Notes under the pieces: generated by a model
The model's input: the letters and a program-made list of their open reading frames with translations, nothing else
Database searches by the model: none
Told to the model about the DNA's origin: nothing
Shown here: positions 26,089 through 35,295 of the stretch, one piece after another
Numbering within the stretch: the first letter of the stretch is position 1
Layout: every line of letters starts with the position of its first letter
NCBI GenBank assembly: GCA_003553245.1
Contig: PWDX01000049.1
Coordinates: 1-37,287, forward strand
Source: Phycisphaerae bacterium
Lineage (GTDB): Bacteria; Planctomycetota; Phycisphaerae; Sedimentisphaerales; Anaerobacaceae
Length of the DNA stretch: 37,287 nt
Direction: 5' to 3'
Position numbers and translations under genes: made by a program

Positions 26089-27196
26089 GGTCAGGGACAG
26101 CGTGGTGCTGATGCCGGCGAGCCTGCGGCCTTATGAGCCGTCTGCGCCGCCTGAGAAGCGGATAGCGGTTCTTATGAGCGGGGGCGTTGACAGTTCTGTT
26201 TGCGCGGCGCTGCTGAAGGAGCGGAGCTGGGATGTGCTTGGAATAACGATGAAGGTTCCAAGCTGCGACAGCGGTGTTAGCGGCTGTTGCGGGGCGGACG
26301 CGGCGTTTGTGTGTGATGAGTTGGGTATATCTCATTATTTTGTCGATGTTTGCCGGGCTTTTACGGAGTTGATAATCAAGCCGTTTAAGTTGGCCTATCA
26401 GCAGGGGCAGACTCCGAATCCTTGCGCAGATTGCAATACATACCTGAAGTTCGCTCTGGTTTGGGATTTGGTGCTGCAGGAGTTTGGGATCGAAAATCTT
26501 GCGACGGGGCACTATGCGGAAATTAGGGAGTATGACGGTCATAAAGCGCTTGGTCAGGCAACTGATAAGACGAAAGATCAAAGTTATTTCCTTTACGGCA
26601 TAAAGCGGGAGCGGCTTGGTCGGCTGGCGTTTCCACTTGCGGGTATAGCTAAGACGCGGACCCGCCAGATAGCGGCTGGGCTTGGCTTGAAGGTTAAGGA
26701 AAAGCCTGAGAGTATGGAGTTGTGTTTCGCCGGGCAGGGGGATTATCGTGATGTTTTAGGGGTGGGGGATTCCGGCAAGCCTGGGCCGGTGGTTGATACA
26801 AGCGGTAATGAGCTTGGAGAGCATAAGGGGCTTGGCAATTATACGCTTGGTCAGCGTAAGGGTATCGGCATTGCATCGACGCAGCCGCTGTATGTTGCGA
26901 AGATTGATATCGCGGCCAATACGCTGGTGCTTGGTCGTAGAGAAGAGGTGCTGATTAAGGAGATTCGGGCTGATAGTTTGAATATACTGATGCCGTCGCT
27001 GCTGGGAGAGGGGCAGGAGTTCCTCGGTAAAATCCGGTCCTATACCGGCGGTCAGCAGTGCAGGATTACGGATATAGGAGATGACAGGCTAACGGTGCAG
27101 TTTGATAAGCCGGTATTTGCGCCATGCCCCGGCCAAAAGCTGGTGCTTTATGATAGCCGGGGCAATGTCGTAGTCGGTGGAACAATTATCAGTTAG
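26069..27196 (+). CDS. mnmA: tRNA-specific 2-thiouridylase
   Basis: A 375-residue enzyme that thiolates U34 of tRNAs for Lys, Glu and Gln. VLMSGGVDSSVCAALL is the PP-loop for ATP (residues 36-43), NPCADCNTYLKF carries the first catalytic Cys119, TGHYAEI and DQSYFLYGI are family blocks, and ELCFAGQGDYRDVL carries Cys219, which forms the persulfide. The C-terminal beta-barrel begins near NYTLGQRKGIGI. About 30 residues precede the PP-loop motif, longer than usual. GGGGG lies five bases before the ATG. It starts inside the end of hydE, and its stop overlaps the convergent secDF stop by eight bases. Codon use resembles hydE. Confidence 0.92.
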   Translation: MAADLYRVRDSVVLMPASLRPYEPSAPPEKRIAVLMSGGVDSSVCAALLKERSWDVLGITMKVPSCDSGVSGCCGADAAFVCDELGISHYFVDVCRAFTELIIKPFKLAYQQGQTPNPCADCNTYLKFALVWDLVLQEFGIENLATGHYAEIREYDGHKALGQATDKTKDQSYFLYGIKRERLGRLAFPLAGIAKTRTRQIAAGLGLKVKEKPESMELCFAGQGDYRDVLGVGDSGKPGPVVDTSGNELGEHKGLGNYTLGQRKGIGIASTQPLYVAKIDIAANTLVLGRREEVLIKEIRADSLNILMPSLLGEGQEFLGKIRSYTGGQQCRITDIGDDRLTVQFDKPVFAPCPGQKLVLYDSRGNVVVGGTIIS

Positions 27197-30100
27197 CCGT
27201 TGCCGGTTTTGACGAAACTGTCGTTCTGGCCGGTTTTTTCTCATTGGCTGTTTTGCCGGCGCCTATCAGCAGCAGCGGTGCTGCGATGGCGATTGAAGAG
27301 TAACTACCAACGATTACACCCAGACCTATCGCGAATGTGAACCCTCGCAGTTCTGCGCCGCCGAATATATACATAACCAGGACAACCAGGAAAGTTGTAA
27401 GCGAGGTCAGTATTGTTCGCGGTATTGTTTCGTTGATACTGTCCGAAACTGTCTGCGGAACAAGCTGTTTCTTCTTTCGATTTTCACGGATTCGGTCAAA
27501 GACGACGATAGTGTCGTTAAGCGAATAACCGATTAGTGTCAGAAAGGCCGCGATTATGGTAAGGTCAATGTTGAAGTCCCTTATCAGCAGCGCATCGCCG
27601 ATAGCGGTTCCGGCGATATATGTGCAGGCCACCAAGGCGCCGAGCGTAATAGTAACATCGTGAACCAGCGCGGCGATAGCAGCGAGGCCATAACGGGCGC
27701 TTCCAAATCTAACCCATATATATCCGATAATCGCCAGAAGTGACAGGAATATAGCTATAACTGCCTGTGTTTTGGCTTCGCCGCCTATTGACGGATCAAT
27801 CTGTGTTACACGAGGTAAAGACGCCTCAAGCTGCATAGCCTGAGTGATCTTTTGCTCTTCGGCGGCAGCGAACTGTTGCCATTGGTCGTCAGGCATTTGT
27901 GCACCTGCTTCGGGTGAAGAGCTTATATAAACAAATTCCGAATATTCTCTGTCAGCTTCAAGAGGCCTAAGATTTTCATCTAATAGACGATGCTCGTACC
28001 ATTGCATATCTTCCACATCGTCGTCCCTGAAGCGTATGTCACGAAGGCGATTTTCTATTGTTGATCTTGTCGCCGGTATTTGCAATGAAGTCGTTATTCT
28101 TACGCCGCCGAGGAAATCTGCAAGTTCGGGATAGGCGCCGATGTCTTCTTCGTCTATTCTTTCAATGTTTGCGATTTCCGGCTGAAGATTCCGCTCAAGT
28201 TCGAGATATTCACCGAGCGCCTGCATGACAGCTTCGTTAACGACCTGATTGATATACGGATCGGATACATCAGCCTGTGGAAATGCCTGCGTGAGAACTT
28301 CACGGACAATAGCGGTATTCATCTGCCCTGTTGAGACGGTGAAAGTGTTTTCGTTATCCGCTCTTACATTCAATTCCGATAATTGGTATCCGGTCTGCCG
28401 GGCTGCCTGAGCTATTTGCGCACGAACCTGCGTAGCGGCGAGTTGCTGCTCAGCGGGCAAGGTTATAGTGGCAACGGTTTCGTTTGTGGCCGTGGTGGTA
28501 ATCTCGTAACGATCACCCGTCTGGCCCACACTGTAAACGCCTGCGGCGGCAAGGGCTGGGTTATTGATTTCCCTGCCGATGGCGTGAATTCTATCGGCTA
28601 CATCCTGTCTGGCAAGTTCTGCGCCTTCGCGGAGGGTTACCTCGACGGAAGTCCCGCCGGTAAACTCAATTCCGTATTTGCTGTTGGTCGCTTCGTCCCG
28701 TGACAAGAAAGCTCCTATTCCGGCGAGAATCAGAATTGCCGAGACAGTAAAGAAGTACTTGCGAGCGGCCATCCAGTTTATGGAAGTTTTACCGAAGAAA
28801 GCGAGCATTGAGAGTTTGTCTTTGAGTATTTTTCTGGTCGTGAGCCAGTCGAAGAATACTCTTGTTACGAACAGAGCTGTGAACATACTTGCTACGATAC
28901 CGAGCATCAGGACGATGGCGAAGCCTTTGACTTCTTCCGGCGCCTGCCACAGGAGTATCGCTGCGGTTATGAAAGTTGTAACATTAGCGTCAAAAATGGT
29001 TCTAAAAGCTCGCTCGTAGCCGTTTTTGATAGCGATCCTAAGTGACGAGCCGCGTTTTTGTTCTTCACGGATGCGCTCGAAGATAAGCACATTCGCATCC
29101 ACGCTCATGCCGATTGTAAGAATAAGGCCCGCAATACCGGGCAGAGTAAATGTAGCACGCAGAAGCACCATAAAGCCGAGCACAAAAAGCACATTCAAAA
29201 ACAGCGCGACATTGGCCAGTACTCCGGCGATCAGGTAATATACAATCATAAATGCCGCGACGAGGAAAAAGCCTACAATAACGGCTGTTATGCCCTGGTC
29301 TCGGTTTTCGGCGCCTATCGATGGCCCTACCGTCCTGACGGATATTGGTTGTTCGATGAGCCTTGCCGGCAGGGAGCCTGCGTTAAGCTTATCTATCATA
29401 TCATTTATTTCTGTTTGACTGAAATTGCCGGTAATTGTGCCTTCGGTGGTGATTCGAGATTGTATCGTTGGGGCTGACAACGCCCTGTTATCAAGCATTA
29501 TACCGAGTTGTCTTTCGAGATTGTCTCCGGTTATGCGTCCGAAGGTAGCTCCGCCTCGCTGGTCGAGTCTGAATGCTATCGCTCGGCGTCCCATCTGGTC
29601 TGAGGTTGGACGAGCGCGTTCTAATTGCCATTGTCTTTGTTGGCCGTCCTGGAGCATTTTTTCGTTGTCAAGATTACTTGTCAGAACATATTCTCTTGCG
29701 CCAAATGGTGCTGTTATAGAGCCTGGAACATTCCATTCTTCCGGATCTTCGATTTCGAGCCAGACATAGCTTTCATCCGAGGCGTAGCGCGGACCTCTTT
29801 GGGTAAGATTTTCCACATAGGTATCAATCTGTTCGTCACGAAGCACATCCTCAAATCTTGTCGGTATAATCCTGAATTCGAGAATTCCGGCTCCCTCAAG
29901 CATTCGCTGTAAGTCTCTTGGATCGTCGAGCCTGCCTCTGAAAGGCTGGTATTGCTCAAAGGTAGTTGCGACCAGTCTGATTTGTTCTGCGCGTTCGGGG
30001 AATTGCTCTTTAAGCTGCTCGAGAGCGTTTCGCTGTTCGTTTTCATTAGGAGTCTCCAGCACCGCTATCATCTGTTCGCGAGTGACGTTCAGGTCATCCA

Positions 30101-30887
30101 GTTCGCTTCGAGCTCTTTCATAGCGGATGTTTAAGCCTTCTTCAGGGTCAGTAAGCTCATCCACCGCTTCGGCCCAGCCGCGGTAAGCTTCGACATATCT
30201 GGTCAGCAATTCGAGCTTTTCGGCATCGTCCTCATCAAGATAGTCTCTCAATGTTTCTGCCAGTTCCTGCTCGGAAAGCTGCGACCAGCCGTGAACCTCA
30301 TCTTCGACATCGGCAATGTTTATCCCGACCTCAGAAACCTCATCGGCCAGTTCGTCAAGTTCCGCCTGATACTGGTCTCGCTGGCTGCGCAGTTGCTGTC
30401 TCTGGTCATAAATGGATGCAAGCTCCTCGAATATGCTCATAGTATCTTCGCAGCCGTGCGCAAGTCTTTCGAGAGACTCCTTCCGCTGTTGCTGAGGCTG
30501 GTCGAGTATTCGCATTACGGCGGCGGGATTGACATTTCTTGCCATCAACTCGTCCATCGCGACTTCAAAATTTTCGCGTTTTTCGCGAGCTTCTGCGCTT
30601 GCTAAAGGCATAACTACCTCAAAGCGCGTCGCTCCCTGGGGCCTCCATAACAGATTTCGCACATTATGCGGATCGACTCGCCTTTGAAGTACCGCAATCA
30701 TCCTCTGCGATAGGCCGTGCCTTTCGGCATCTGCAAGGCCTGTCGGGTCTATTTCATAAGTAAGGCTTGTTCCACCTGCCAGGTCGATTCCAGGCTTGAT
30801 TGTTCTACTGGGTGGGTAGAGAGTCCAGAATGCTACGACAGCTAACACGACGATTAAGGCGAATTTCCAACCAAGATTCCTATTCAT
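27189..30887 (-). CDS. secDF: protein translocase SecD-SecF fusion with coiled-coil insertion
   Basis: A 1,232-residue membrane protein joining SecD and SecF, which use the proton-motive force to pull exported proteins through SecYEG. The first transmembrane helix is near residues 8-24. KPGIDLAGGTSLTYEID is the SecD start motif, and GAGILEFRII ends the P1 base. Between them is a Glu/Gln-rich, coiled-coil-like insertion of roughly 200 residues absent from standard SecD. SVDANVLIFERIREE marks TM4 of SecD. YGIEFTGGTSVEV begins the SecF half, also with an enlarged periplasmic domain, and GYSLNDTIVVFDRIREN is its counterpart motif. Fused SecDF also occurs in Bacillus, but there without this insert. 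It follows yajC in the leftward operon. Confidence 0.95.
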   Translation of the reverse strand: MNRNLGWKFALIVVLAVVAFWTLYPPSRTIKPGIDLAGGTSLTYEIDPTGLADAERHGLSQRMIAVLQRRVDPHNVRNLLWRPQGATRFEVVMPLASAEAREKRENFEVAMDELMARNVNPAAVMRILDQPQQQRKESLERLAHGCEDTMSIFEELASIYDQRQQLRSQRDQYQAELDELADEVSEVGINIADVEDEVHGWSQLSEQELAETLRDYLDEDDAEKLELLTRYVEAYRGWAEAVDELTDPEEGLNIRYERARSELDDLNVTREQMIAVLETPNENEQRNALEQLKEQFPERAEQIRLVATTFEQYQPFRGRLDDPRDLQRMLEGAGILEFRIIPTRFEDVLRDEQIDTYVENLTQRGPRYASDESYVWLEIEDPEEWNVPGSITAPFGAREYVLTSNLDNEKMLQDGQQRQWQLERARPTSDQMGRRAIAFRLDQRGGATFGRITGDNLERQLGIMLDNRALSAPTIQSRITTEGTITGNFSQTEINDMIDKLNAGSLPARLIEQPISVRTVGPSIGAENRDQGITAVIVGFFLVAAFMIVYYLIAGVLANVALFLNVLFVLGFMVLLRATFTLPGIAGLILTIGMSVDANVLIFERIREEQKRGSSLRIAIKNGYERAFRTIFDANVTTFITAAILLWQAPEEVKGFAIVLMLGIVASMFTALFVTRVFFDWLTTRKILKDKLSMLAFFGKTSINWMAARKYFFTVSAILILAGIGAFLSRDEATNSKYGIEFTGGTSVEVTLREGAELARQDVADRIHAIGREINNPALAAAGVYSVGQTGDRYEITTTATNETVATITLPAEQQLAATQVRAQIAQAARQTGYQLSELNVRADNENTFTVSTGQMNTAIVREVLTQAFPQADVSDPYINQVVNEAVMQALGEYLELERNLQPEIANIERIDEEDIGAYPELADFLGGVRITTSLQIPATRSTIENRLRDIRFRDDDVEDMQWYEHRLLDENLRPLEADREYSEFVYISSSPEAGAQMPDDQWQQFAAAEEQKITQAMQLEASLPRVTQIDPSIGGEAKTQAVIAIFLSLLAIIGYIWVRFGSARYGLAAIAALVHDVTITLGALVACTYIAGTAIGDALLIRDFNIDLTIIAAFLTLIGYSLNDTIVVFDRIRENRKKKQLVPQTVSDSINETIPRTILTSLTTFLVVLVMYIFGGAELRGFTFAIGLGVIVGSYSSIAIAAPLLLIGAGKTANEKKPARTTVSSKPATAN

Positions 30888-30989: not shown

Positions 30990-31418
30990 CTATTTTGTTT
31001 CCTTCGAGAGATTAGCTGCGATAGCACTCGGTATTATTTTCATTTTTGTGTTCGTAGATTCATCTATTTTGACTGTGATCTGATCGTCTTTTACATCAAC
31101 AACTGTGCCGATAATCCCGCCGATGGGGCGTATTTTGTCGTTTTTCTCAACGCTTTGGACCATCTTCTGGTGCTCCTGCTGGCGTTTTTTCGGGCCCCTG
31201 AAAAGCAGAAAGTACATAAGCAATGCGATCGCAGCAAAAAACAGTATGTTGTGAAGCCCGATTTGCTGTTGTGGTGGTGCTTCTTCGTCCAGTTGCTCAT
31301 TATCGGGTTGGATTGTGTGAGTTTCGGTTTCCTGTTGATTTAGCGGCTCGCCAAAAATGACTTCTTCCTGGTTTTCGGCCTGCGCTTGTGCCTGTGCAAG
31401 TATCCATAATTTGTTCAT
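30990..31418 (-). CDS. yajC: preprotein translocase accessory subunit YajC
   Basis: A 142-residue single-span membrane protein that associates with SecDF. One transmembrane helix (NILFFAAIALLMYFLLF) is followed by RGPKKRQQEHQKMVQSVEKN and GGIIGTVVDVKDDQITVKI, the YajC signature. About 50 Gln/Glu-rich residues precede the helix, an extension not seen in the roughly 110-residue E. coli protein. AAGGAA lies five bases before the ATG. It sits between tgt and secDF, the classical tgt-yajC-secD-secF order. Confidence 0.94.
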   Translation of the reverse strand: MNKLWILAQAQAQAENQEEVIFGEPLNQQETETHTIQPDNEQLDEEAPPQQQIGLHNILFFAAIALLMYFLLFRGPKKRQQEHQKMVQSVEKNDKIRPIGGIIGTVVDVKDDQITVKIDESTNTKMKIIPSAIAANLSKETK

Positions 31419-31512: not shown

Positions 31513-32652
31513 TTAGCCGTTTTTGCCTGGTTTCGGGACAGAATTGAAAACCTTGTATTGCGTGATTTTTTCTTCTGCCCAGTCTGCAAATTGCCCCGTA
31601 TCTATTTTATCCCGGATATTTTTCATTAACCTCTGGTAAAATGCCAGATTGTGCAAGGATAGCATTATGGGACCCAGCATTTCCTTTGTATTAAAAAAAT
31701 GCCTTATTGATGCCCTGCTGTATGTTTGGCAGCAGTAGCAATCACAGCCGGGTTCGATTGGGTTTGTATCCTCTATAAACTTATTGTTTCTCAGTCTTAT
31801 CGGGCCGTTTTCGGTGAATGCGCATGCGTTTCTTCCGTTTCTGGTTGGCAAAACACAATCGAACATATCCACGCCCGATTTAACAGCCTCGATAATATCC
31901 GCTGGGGTTCCTACGCCCATAAGGTAGCGAGGTTTGTCTTTAGGCAAAACTTGTGCGGTATGTTCTACTGTTTTTTTCATATTTTCGTGTCCTTCACCAA
32001 CGCTCAGGCCTCCGATTGCATAGCCGTCGAAATCCATTTTAATCAGTTCCTCAGCGCAATAGCTTCGCATTTGGAGGTCTATTTCGCCCTGTACAATACC
32101 GAAAAGCATTTGGCTGCGGTCTTTATGGGCTTTTTTGCATAGCTGGGCCCATCTTAAAGTTCGCTCGAGGGCCTGTTGAAGTTGGTCTTTCGGGCAGGGG
32201 TAGGGTGTGCATTGGTCGAAAGCCATAATTATATCGGCTCCAAGCTGGTTCTGGATTTTTATGGCTTCTTCAGCGGTGAGGTAAAATCGCTTTCCGTCAA
32301 TATGGCTTGCAAATTCGACGCCGTGGTCATCGATTCTGGTGAGCGCTTCAAGCGAAAAAACCTGATATCCTCCGCTGTCGGTCAGTATCGGGCCATCCCA
32401 GGCCATAAGTTTGTTGATTCCGCCGAGTTTTTCAACAATTTCCGCTCCCGGACGCAGCATCAGATGATAAGTGTTTGCCAGGACAACGCTTGCACCGGTT
32501 TGTCTGAGTTGCTCCGGCGTAGTGCCTTTCACGGCAGCGGCTGTTCCGATGGGCATAAACACCGGTGTTTGCACGCTTCCATGTTCCGTATTGAGCAAGC
32601 CCAGCCTGGCACTGGAATGAGTATCTGTTTTTGTAAGCTGAAACGCTGGCAT
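31513..32652 (-). CDS. tgt: queuine tRNA-ribosyltransferase
   Basis: A 379-residue enzyme that swaps guanine 34 for preQ1 in tRNAs with GUN anticodons. GTAAAVKGTTPEQL and ANTYHLMLRPG open the barrel, TDSGGYQVFSL is the substrate loop, and DMFDCVLPTRNGRNACAF carries the catalytic Asp. CDCYCCQTYSRASIRHFF provides the zinc ligands (C-x-C-x2-C and a later His). The length is that of bacterial Tgt. It starts four bases after the SpoIID-like gene with no clear SD, so translation is probably coupled. No queC/D/E/F genes are in the window. Confidence 0.96.
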   Translation of the reverse strand: MPAFQLTKTDTHSSARLGLLNTEHGSVQTPVFMPIGTAAAVKGTTPEQLRQTGASVVLANTYHLMLRPGAEIVEKLGGINKLMAWDGPILTDSGGYQVFSLEALTRIDDHGVEFASHIDGKRFYLTAEEAIKIQNQLGADIIMAFDQCTPYPCPKDQLQQALERTLRWAQLCKKAHKDRSQMLFGIVQGEIDLQMRSYCAEELIKMDFDGYAIGGLSVGEGHENMKKTVEHTAQVLPKDKPRYLMGVGTPADIIEAVKSGVDMFDCVLPTRNGRNACAFTENGPIRLRNNKFIEDTNPIEPGCDCYCCQTYSRASIRHFFNTKEMLGPIMLSLHNLAFYQRLMKNIRDKIDTGQFADWAEEKITQYKVFNSVPKPGKNG

Positions 32653-32656
32653 TGTT

Positions 32657-33940
32657 TTAGTAGAGTTTTAGAATTTCTGAGCCCGGATAGTAATAGTAAA
32701 GTATCTGCTCGGCTGTGTAGCCTCTTCTCGCTATTGCCTGGGCGCCGCATTGGCACATTCCGACAGCGTGGCCGTATCCTCTGCCGTTTGTAACCGCCCA
32801 TTTTTCGCCTGCGTCAGTTATTTTAAAGGCGGTGCTTTTTATTCTGCTGCCGGTCGGGTCAATGGTCAGGCGGAAATCTTCAGCGCGAATATTGTGTGTT
32901 TTTTCGTTTATGCCGGTGAGTTTTAGCGAAGTGATGCGCTGGAAGTCGCCGTAATCAGATTTGCGGGCTACGGCTATATCGACGATTTGCTCGAGGTTTT
33001 TCAAAGAGGGGTACTTCTGGAGCAAAGCGCTGCTGACATACTTTTTGTCAAATTTCACAGTCGGCCAGTAGAATACGCTGGTTTTCGCTATTTCATAGCA
33101 ATATGGACACGGAACACCTGAAAGAGGTGGAAGGTGTTCGCCAAAGACATATTCGCTGTTTTCCGTATGGCCTCCACAGGCAGAACTATAGAACGCAGTG
33201 AACAATTCAGGCTTTTCATTTTCGCTGCGATAGTGCAAAAATTTTCCTTTGGTGCGGTTTACTGCCTGCCAGGTCCTCGCTGTTTCAGCACGCATACCGT
33301 GATAAACTTGGCTGGCCTGTGTGCGCGTAACATCAAAGTGTCTGCGCGGCCCAAAACGGTTCTTAATATACATTGCGTATGTTCTGGCAGCGATGGTCTG
33401 GGCTTTTAGAGCTTCCATTTCCCAATATTGAGGCATTTCCGCGCTAATTACCCCGGCAAGATAAGGTTCCAGTGGCAGATGATTTATGATGCTGAAAGCA
33501 GTTGCCTCGCTGTTTTGAATTAAAAGGATGTTGCCTCTGTAACGGCTATTGTTCACGGCAAGTATGTGAGGTTCGTCAGTAGTCAGTAAAACTTCACTGC
33601 TTTCAACAAAAAAATCTCCGTCAATTTTAAATTTGCCGCTTTCCAGTGCAATATGAAACGCTTCGTCCCGGCCTGGAAGTTGTTTTTCCTTGCCGGTTTG
33701 TGGGTTCGAAACGATTAGTGCTGATTCGGATGAGAGCTTGAATTCTGTAACACCGTTGGATAAAAGAACCCTCATCCAGTAATCCGTTTCTGTTTCCATT
33801 TCAGGAGTTGTGCGTGATATATATCTTTCGGGGCAGCTTATCATCACAGCGATAATAGAAATACCGGCCGCTATAATCAACAGCAGCCGGTATTTTTTCA
33901 GTTTACCAAGGCCGGGCAATGCAAAACTGTCGCATCTCAT
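32657..33940 (-). CDS. SpoIID/LytB-domain protein, probable peptidoglycan lytic transglycosylase
   Basis: A 427-residue protein with a short cytoplasmic start, a membrane anchor near residues 19-36 (LLLIIAAGISIIAVMIS) and an extracytoplasmic SpoIID domain. LEPYLAGVISAEMPQYWEMEALKAQTIAARTYAM contains the conserved Glu and A-x-x-A-R-T-Y motifs (only key parts quoted). FTAFYSSACGGHTENSEYVF carries the SxxGG motif, and GRGYGHAVGMCQCGAQAIA with YYYYPG closes it. SpoIID cleaves denuded glycan strands in Bacillus. Here it stands outside any sporulation locus, so a role in cell-wall turnover is more likely. It lies between the TPR/alpha-CTD gene and tgt in one operon. The SD (AAGGA) is about ten bases from the ATG. 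Confidence 0.88.
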   Translation of the reverse strand: MRCDSFALPGLGKLKKYRLLLIIAAGISIIAVMISCPERYISRTTPEMETETDYWMRVLLSNGVTEFKLSSESALIVSNPQTGKEKQLPGRDEAFHIALESGKFKIDGDFFVESSEVLLTTDEPHILAVNNSRYRGNILLIQNSEATAFSIINHLPLEPYLAGVISAEMPQYWEMEALKAQTIAARTYAMYIKNRFGPRRHFDVTRTQASQVYHGMRAETARTWQAVNRTKGKFLHYRSENEKPELFTAFYSSACGGHTENSEYVFGEHLPPLSGVPCPYCYEIAKTSVFYWPTVKFDKKYVSSALLQKYPSLKNLEQIVDIAVARKSDYGDFQRITSLKLTGINEKTHNIRAEDFRLTIDPTGSRIKSTAFKITDAGEKWAVTNGRGYGHAVGMCQCGAQAIARRGYTAEQILYYYYPGSEILKLY

Positions 33941-33978: not shown

Positions 33979-35295
33979 TTAATCAATTTTTCTAAGGGAC
34001 AGACCGAGATCGGCTAAGGCTTTTTTAACTTCGTTAAGACTTGTAACGCCGAAATTTTTACAGCCAAGCAGTTCGGCTTCTGTGATTTGAGCTAAGTCGC
34101 CGATTTTTTTGATATCCAGCTTTTCGAGGCATTTTTTTGCCCTTACAGACAGTTGTAAATCTTCGATCGGATTTTCATAAAGAGCCTTGAACTGCTCTTG
34201 TTGCTGTTCCTGCTGATCGTTGGATTCCGACGAATCTGTGTCCTCTCTTGCCATTCCCAGATATAGCCCTTTTGAGTCAAGGATTTCTTTGATTTCCTTT
34301 AGTGAAGTTTCACCGAAGTTTTTATATGACAGCAATTCACTCTCGGTTATATTGAGCAGGTCGCCGATTGTTTCGATGTTCATTTTCTGGAGGCAGTTTC
34401 TGCTTCTTACCGACAGCTCGAAGTCCGTCAAAGGCGTTTCGAGCATCTGGTTTTTCCGGTCAATTCGTTTTTCCCATTCCTCGTCGTAGAACATTGTCCT
34501 TGAGCTTCGTATGTCTTTCTCAAAGAGCCTTGCTCTTTTATGGTTTGGGTGGTTTTTTAGCACCTTTCTGACGCAGCTGAGGGCTTTTTCATATTCGGCT
34601 TTGTCTTCGTATATCACCGCGAGGTTCAGCATAGCGTTTACATAAACAGTTCCTTGGCCTTGCAACTGCTTGTAATGTTCAATTGCGGATTCTTCATCGC
34701 CAAGCAGATCGCATCTATATGCCAGATGGAATCTTGCCTGTGCGTGTTTGGGTTCGAGTTCAATTGCCTTTTCGTAGTTTTTCGCAGCTTTTATATAAAG
34801 TCCCTGGTCTTCGAGCAGTCTTCCCAGCTGATAATGGTACTCTGCGCTTACGCCATCATAGTTTGAGCAGGCTTGCAGTTCTTTTTCCGCCTTTTCGAAA
34901 TTATCTGCCTGGCGATATGTTGAGGCTTTCTCGAATGCCACCGTGAGCTTGTCGGCGTCATTCTTACTGGCCTTATCAAGGTTTTTCACAGCATCTTCGA
35001 AGTTCCCAAGCTCTCGGTTAGCGAATGCAAGGTACATAAATTTTTGTGCGCAGTCGTCGGCTTTTTCAAGTTTTTCCGCTGCCTGAGCATATTCTCCGAG
35101 TATGTAGTAGCCGATTCCGCCGGTCAGATTGGCCTTTGCCGATCTTTTCTGAGCGTTCTGTTCAACCAATTCGGCGAACTCCATCGTATTCTTCTCATCT
35201 GAATATACATTCAGAGATATTTGTTCGATCTCATTGGGTTGTGGTATTGTTTGTCCAAAAAGATCAGCTTCTGTCTGTGTGGCAACCTGTTCCAT
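33979..35295 (-). CDS. TPR protein with two RNA polymerase alpha-CTD domains
   Basis: A 438-residue soluble protein. Residues about 40-265 are tetratricopeptide repeats (GGIGYYILGEYAQAAEKLEK and AEYHYQLGRLLEDQGLYIKA are examples). Two copies of the RpoA C-terminal domain follow, about 287-355 and 370-438. In copy one LSVRSRNCLQKMNIETIGDL keeps the Arg and Asn (Arg297, Asn300) that bind UP-element DNA in E. coli (Arg265, Asn268), and NFGETSLKEI keeps the Gly and Ser. In copy two the Arg is kept (Arg385) but the Asn is Lys388. A Glu/Gln linker separates the copies. There is no polymerase assembly domain. AGGAG lies seven bases before the ATG. It leads the spoIID-tgt-yajC-secDF operon. Role unknown. 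Confidence 0.9.
   Translation of the reverse strand: MEQVATQTEADLFGQTIPQPNEIEQISLNVYSDEKNTMEFAELVEQNAQKRSAKANLTGGIGYYILGEYAQAAEKLEKADDCAQKFMYLAFANRELGNFEDAVKNLDKASKNDADKLTVAFEKASTYRQADNFEKAEKELQACSNYDGVSAEYHYQLGRLLEDQGLYIKAAKNYEKAIELEPKHAQARFHLAYRCDLLGDEESAIEHYKQLQGQGTVYVNAMLNLAVIYEDKAEYEKALSCVRKVLKNHPNHKRARLFEKDIRSSRTMFYDEEWEKRIDRKNQMLETPLTDFELSVRSRNCLQKMNIETIGDLLNITESELLSYKNFGETSLKEIKEILDSKGLYLGMAREDTDSSESNDQQEQQQEQFKALYENPIEDLQLSVRAKKCLEKLDIKKIGDLAQITEAELLGCKNFGVTSLNEVKKALADLGLSLRKID

Follow-up and report, generated by a model that had tools for sequence, protein, structure and literature searches.

The TPR/alpha-CTD gene and its operon

The window, i.e., the whole stretch of 37,287 nucleotides of Phycisphaerae DNA that was analyzed, carries on its reverse strand an ORF that starts with ATG and encodes several TPR repeats followed by two copies of the C-terminal domain of the RNA polymerase alpha subunit (alpha-CTD; Table 1). 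The next gene, spoIID, follows after a gap of 38 bp, and hemA lies upstream in divergent orientation. The product of the secDF fusion has 1232 residues, its conserved domains being separated by long additional segments.

Table 1. Coordinates of the operon genes and of the domains of the TPR/alpha-CTD protein within the window
Feature	Position	Strand	Evidence
TPR + tandem alpha-CTD protein, 438 aa, first gene of operon	33979..35295	-	ORF, Pfam, orthologues in 294/297 Planctomycetota genomes
TPR solenoid, residues about 51-266	34498..35145	-	Pfam TPR matches; AlphaFold helices 20-266
alpha-CTD copy 1 (CTD1), residues 279-340	34276..34461	-	Pfam, PDB sequence search, predicted fold
Flexible linker between CTDs, residues about 352-366	34198..34242	-	pLDDT <50; least conserved stretch
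alpha-CTD copy 2 (CTD2), residues about 365-428	34012..34203	-	Pfam, PDB sequence search, predicted fold
SpoIID/LytB-domain protein, same operon	32657..33940	-	TIGR02669 E 1.7e-60
tgt, tRNA-guanine transglycosylase	31513..32652	-	TIGR00430 E 2.5e-150
yajC	30990..31418	-	TIGR00739 E 8.9e-20
Fused secDF	27189..30887	-	Pfam + NCBIfam

The preliminary description had placed the gene at the head of a Sec/tRNA-modification operon. As a statement about gene order on one strand this is correct, apart from the SpoIID gene, which had been missed; as a clue to function it carries little weight, because the gene has ruvA or ruvC as neighbor elsewhere. The order in the window, with the TPR/alpha-CTD gene first and spoIID-tgt-yajC-secDF behind it, is that of Sedimentisphaerales, and in Pirellulales the gene is followed by tgt-yajC-secDF. 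In most other classes, the gene is situated directly upstream of ruvA (22 loci) or ruvC (two genomes of one family). One family has the gene at the head of ruvA-ruvB-queH-spoIID-tgt-yajC, another at the head of ruvC-ruvA-ruvB-queH-spoIID-tgt, and all these arrangements look like pieces of one ancestral ruvCAB-queH-spoIID-tgt-yajC-secDF cluster that began with the TPR/alpha-CTD gene. In the genome of the window, ruvC is found at another site. A functional tie to Sec or queuosine was rejected as the main reading because the gene precedes ruvA or ruvC in other classes, and the cluster as such says little about function, since the neighbors are housekeeping genes of several pathways. The operon region yielded no match in Rfam, and a scan for promoters and terminators found no more of them than in shuffled sequence.

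Domain architecture and predicted fold

The Pfam family RNA_pol_A_CTD (PF03118) matched the 438-residue protein in two stretches behind the TPR repeats (whole-protein E 1.7e-42; 143.4 bits against a curated cut-off of 23.8), and each copy alone, at 80 and 77 bits, surpassed this threshold. Several TPR families were also matched above their cut-offs, down to E 4.9e-18. No Pfam match was obtained for the alpha-NTD (PF01000/PF01193), the assembly and dimerization domain of alpha, and the RpoA equivalog TIGR02027 was not reached (139.9 bits against a cut-off of 227.8), the matching parts being the CTDs. NCBIfam and PADLOC contained no family covering the full architecture. PADLOC returned, besides weak matches, only the CTD of PglW, and the corresponding NCBIfam family was matched far below its cut-off (42.8 bits against 990), again in the CTD region only.

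When each CTD was queried alone against the sequences of the PDB, only RpoA chains were retrieved (best E 3.3e-15 and 3.8e-13). The AlphaFold model of the full-length protein (mean pLDDT 84.8) consists of a confident solenoid (residues 20-266) and two compact tails separated by a disordered linker. The fold search with this model was swamped by TPR matches, and the C-terminal half was therefore folded by itself (mean pLDDT 75.8). Both tails of that model superpose on the solved alpha-CTDs of E. coli, B. subtilis, and Caulobacter with Z scores of about 12-13 over 67-75 residues. This comparison, which had been set as a check beforehand, rules out that the tails are generic HhH domains. Thus, the earlier view of two genuine alpha-CTDs that lack the assembly domain and are joined to a TPR scaffold is borne out by Pfam, the PDB matches, and the predicted fold, and the protein is a free-standing tandem alpha-CTD protein rather than an RpoA.

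That the 34-residue TPR repeats form a solenoid is supported by the Pfam families above cut-off and by the AlphaFold model, of which residues about 4-267 align with the TPR domain of OGT (1w3b_A; VIA-align Z 21.7, rmsd 5.5, 244 residues aligned). The conserved TPR positions are mostly in the last repeats (155-271), adjoining CTD1, and N224, at repeat position 6, is invariant. The helical repeat fold and an invariant Asn at this position are shared with OGT and with consensus TPR proteins; in contrast to OGT, the protein has no enzymatic domain and its C terminus consists of alpha-CTDs. Position 6 is the one that contacts the peptide backbone in OGT and HOP, and by analogy N224 would fit a peptide-binding groove.

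An alpha-CTD-like domain outside RNA polymerase has been described in the BREX kinase PglW (PMC12839542), the family that the window protein matches in part. However, PglW belongs to a defence system and is a large kinase, whereas the window protein has no kinase match and housekeeping neighbors. The alpha-CTD is reused outside RpoA in Verrucomicrobiota and Poribacteria as well, but these fusions are sporadic, have no TPR, carry one to four copies (four in the Poribacteria locus L182), and have other partners. In one Verrucomicrobiota genome (G244), the ORF L180:1034-2257 encodes a complete sigma-70 factor (regions 1.2, 2, 3, and 4) with a C-terminal alpha-CTD (PF03118 E 3.4e-16). At two further loci of Verrucomicrobiota (L181, L189) and three of Poribacteria (L182, L183, L185), one to four N-terminal alpha-CTDs precede other domains, with a motif resembling the HTH of sigma region 4 discernible by eye behind them. 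Within the family of the window itself, one genome (G018) encodes a protein of 546 residues (L186:1778-3418) with a single CTD1-like alpha-CTD, in which the R265 helix is altered (LSDNTKNFL).

Distribution, constraint, and origin of the alpha-CTDs

A profile of the whole protein detected it in 294 of 297 Planctomycetota genomes, in all cases with E 2e-52 or better; the genomes were at least 95% complete, and that of the window (91.6%) was also included. This recurrence indicates that the architecture did not arise by chance. Of the three genomes without a match, one contained a truncated frame (G488) and two only rpoA-sized frames (G432, G497), which may reflect loss of the gene or gaps in the assemblies. 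The same profile found the protein in none of 144 Verrucomicrobiota genomes (best match 3e-26); among the matches listed for this phylum, almost all were the CTD of RpoA-sized frames and one was to TPR only. A survey of the CTD family agreed with this picture: 141 of 148 Planctomycetota genomes gave at least three matches, usually one in rpoA and two in the TPR/alpha-CTD gene, whereas Verrucomicrobiota, Poribacteria, and 14 assorted non-planctomycete genomes usually gave one or none. In a general genome collection, full-length relatives came exclusively from planctomycetes or unassigned MAGs, although the exact-peptide scan used there is insensitive. Most genomes have one copy, generally on top of a normal rpoA, and nearly all relatives have rpoA as a gene of its own. 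No rpoA was detected in the window's own assembly (no PF01000 match); because the relatives carry a normal rpoA including its CTD, this is attributed to an assembly gap, and the idea that the TPR/alpha-CTD protein substitutes for a missing RpoA CTD in this organism was rejected on the same grounds.

Residues of the two copies were compared, in the numbering of E. coli alpha, across 62 orthologues for CTD1 and 60 for CTD2. Both tails share with the CTD of RpoA not only sequence, fold, and hydrophobic core but also R265, N294, G296, and E302, and CTD1 additionally N268 and E261; the protein differs from RpoA in that it lacks the alpha-NTD and carries two CTDs, joined to the TPR, in one chain. 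CTD1 of the window retains D259, E261, R265, N268, C269, N294, G296, S299, and E302, of which E261, R265, N268, C269, N294, G296, and E302 are invariant in 62/62 sequences. It departs from E. coli at K291 (Ser), K297 (Glu), and K298 (Thr), as does the family, with Ser or Ala at 291 in 59/62, Glu at 297 in 59/62, and Thr at 298 in all 62. CTD2 of the window keeps R265 and E302 but has Lys at 268 and Gln at 261; across its family, R265 and E302 are present in 60/60 and N294 in 54/60, and residue 268 is Lys or Arg in 50/60. The Arg and Asn noted earlier in the first copy, and the Arg and Lys in the second, hence correspond to R265/N268 and R265/Lys268, and both traits are family-wide. On the list of minor-groove and backbone DNA contacts (R265, N268, N294, G296, K298, S299, and E302), CTD1 lacks only K298, where it has the Thr of planctomycete RpoA, whereas CTD2 departs at K298 and, with Lys or Arg, at N268.

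The contrast drawn between the copies at the outset also holds for their rates, CTD1 being near-frozen and CTD2 drifting. In the same 17 genomes, mean identity between genomes was 74% for CTD1, 64% for the RpoA CTD, and 47% for CTD2, and CTD1 was more conserved than the RpoA CTD in 88% of the 136 comparisons. The set of DNA-contact positions (265, 268, 269, 294, 296, 298, 299, and 302) showed far stronger conservation in CTD1 than did random polar positions (none of 20,000 random sets was as low), and it exceeded them even in the fast-evolving CTD2 (P 0.00015). In contrast, the surfaces around 261 (sigma contact) and 287 (activator contact), taken as sets, were no better conserved than random polar positions, so that contact with sigma or activators has no specific support beyond E261 itself. 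CTD1 does not simply duplicate the RpoA CTD: R267, K272, M273, E297, K310, and R313 are near-fixed in it and rare in RpoA. In one genus (loci L151 and L152; genomes G105, G161, and G180), the protein is shortened and contains CTD1 only, indicating that CTD2 is dispensable there.

In the closed complex of E. coli, R265 and N294 insert into the minor groove, and the phosphates are contacted by K291 and K298 (PMC7822876). CTD1 has kept the first pair and lost the second. Given this loss and the charge reversal from Lys to Glu at 297, it may bind DNA more weakly than the alpha-CTD of E. coli does.

Residue 298 also bears on where the CTDs came from. It is Lys in 22/22 RpoA sequences of other phyla and Thr in 45/45 of planctomycetes, and Thr is likewise found in 62/62 CTD1 and 53/60 CTD2 sequences. 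Because T298 unites the two CTDs with planctomycete RpoA and is absent from outgroup RpoA, both CTDs probably derive from the phylum's own alpha subunit; parallel adaptation is a possible alternative. In a tree of CTDs, built to date the duplication, CTD1 forms one group (99/98), while the deeper order is not separable with about 80 columns. As to RpoA itself, the 45 Planctomycetota loci (e.g., L005, L011, and L090) have Thr in place of the DNA-phosphate contact K298 and, in 21/45, Ser in place of N294; with these exchanges, recognition of promoter upstream DNA may differ in Planctomycetota.

Possible role in transcription

We favor, with a probability of roughly 0.5, the interpretation that the protein is a DNA-binding accessory transcription factor, a core protein of Planctomycetota that provides alpha-CTDs in trans. 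With R265 and N294, CTD1 would enter the minor groove at A+T-rich sites that probably lie close to promoters, and it could expose to sigma region 4, or to activators, the surface that these factors normally meet on alpha-CTD. The flexibly linked CTD2, with Lys or Arg at 268, would make a second, less specific DNA contact, and the TPR groove would serve as docking site for another protein, which may be a regulator or the RNA polymerase. In this way, the protein would bring the polymerase, or a regulator, to certain promoters or stabilize it there. This interpretation is based on the alpha-CTD identity of both tails in sequence and predicted fold, the conservation of the DNA-contact set in both, the retention of R265 and N294, the constraint on CTD1 above that on the RpoA CTD, the presence in 294/297 genomes, the T298 common with the phylum's RpoA, and the invariant N224 of the TPR. 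Speaking against it, the absence of K291 and K298 and the Glu297 of CTD1 would argue for weaker DNA binding, the 261 and 287 surfaces are not specifically conserved as sets, and the neighbors in the operon are housekeeping genes, ruvCAB among them.

The same exchanges in CTD1 would suit binding of protein more than of DNA, and CTD1 keeps E261, R265, N268, and N294 in a protein that has no alpha-NTD. Both facts would fit a decoy or competitor that occupies UP-like DNA or alpha-CTD-binding activators in the absence of polymerase and so dampens activator- or UP-dependent transcription. We consider this rather unlikely, because near-universal presence and a constraint tighter than that on RpoA's own CTD look like a core function, and a pure decoy has no obvious need for a conserved TPR groove. 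An adaptor in transcription elongation or translation coupling, whose CTDs bind NusA, NusG, or Spx-like factors instead of DNA while the TPR links another machine, appears unlikely. Besides DNA, regulators are known ligands of alpha-CTDs (PDB complexes with Spx and activators), and the near-fixed residues that set CTD1 apart from RpoA, from R267 to R313, point to a partner of its own; yet the DNA-contact set is kept even in the drifting CTD2. The position directly upstream of ruvA or ruvC could be taken to mean that the protein is a repair or recombination factor tied to RuvCAB, with the CTDs serving as HhH DNA-binding modules unrelated to transcription. This is quite improbable, as Sedimentisphaerales and Pirellulales have no ruv genes left in the cluster, where the gene has remained together with tgt/secDF, the window's genome has ruvC elsewhere, the cluster as a whole is an operon of housekeeping genes, and the CTDs are specifically alpha-CTD-like and have K298T in common with the phylum's RpoA.

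An extension of the accessory-factor interpretation, which we regard as doubtful, is that the protein is a dedicated phylum-wide auxiliary factor that gives the RNA polymerase of Planctomycetota extra alpha-CTDs in trans, i.e., a general transcription factor that became established at the root of Planctomycetota.

The domain types are already known. In the literature searched, no paper describing their combination, TPR with tandem alpha-CTDs, was found, in agreement with the initial statement that it has no known experimental function, and the main text of the P. limnophila Tn-seq paper did not yield the gene. Together, the data suggest a phylum-wide transcription factor that lacks an experimental description in the literature searched. 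The molecular hypothesis is testable, because it is well established how alpha-CTD contacts DNA, sigma, and activators, which allows the direct design of point mutants. The cell biology of planctomycetes is unusual, and many of their core genes have no known function (PMC10632474). The TPR/alpha-CTD protein, which about 99% of the phylum retains and which is constrained more tightly than the housekeeping alpha-CTD, makes a strong candidate for a component of the planctomycete transcription core that has so far gone undescribed. If it were indeed a general auxiliary factor, then, together with the K298T exchange in RpoA, promoter upstream recognition in this phylum would differ from that of all bacteria studied.
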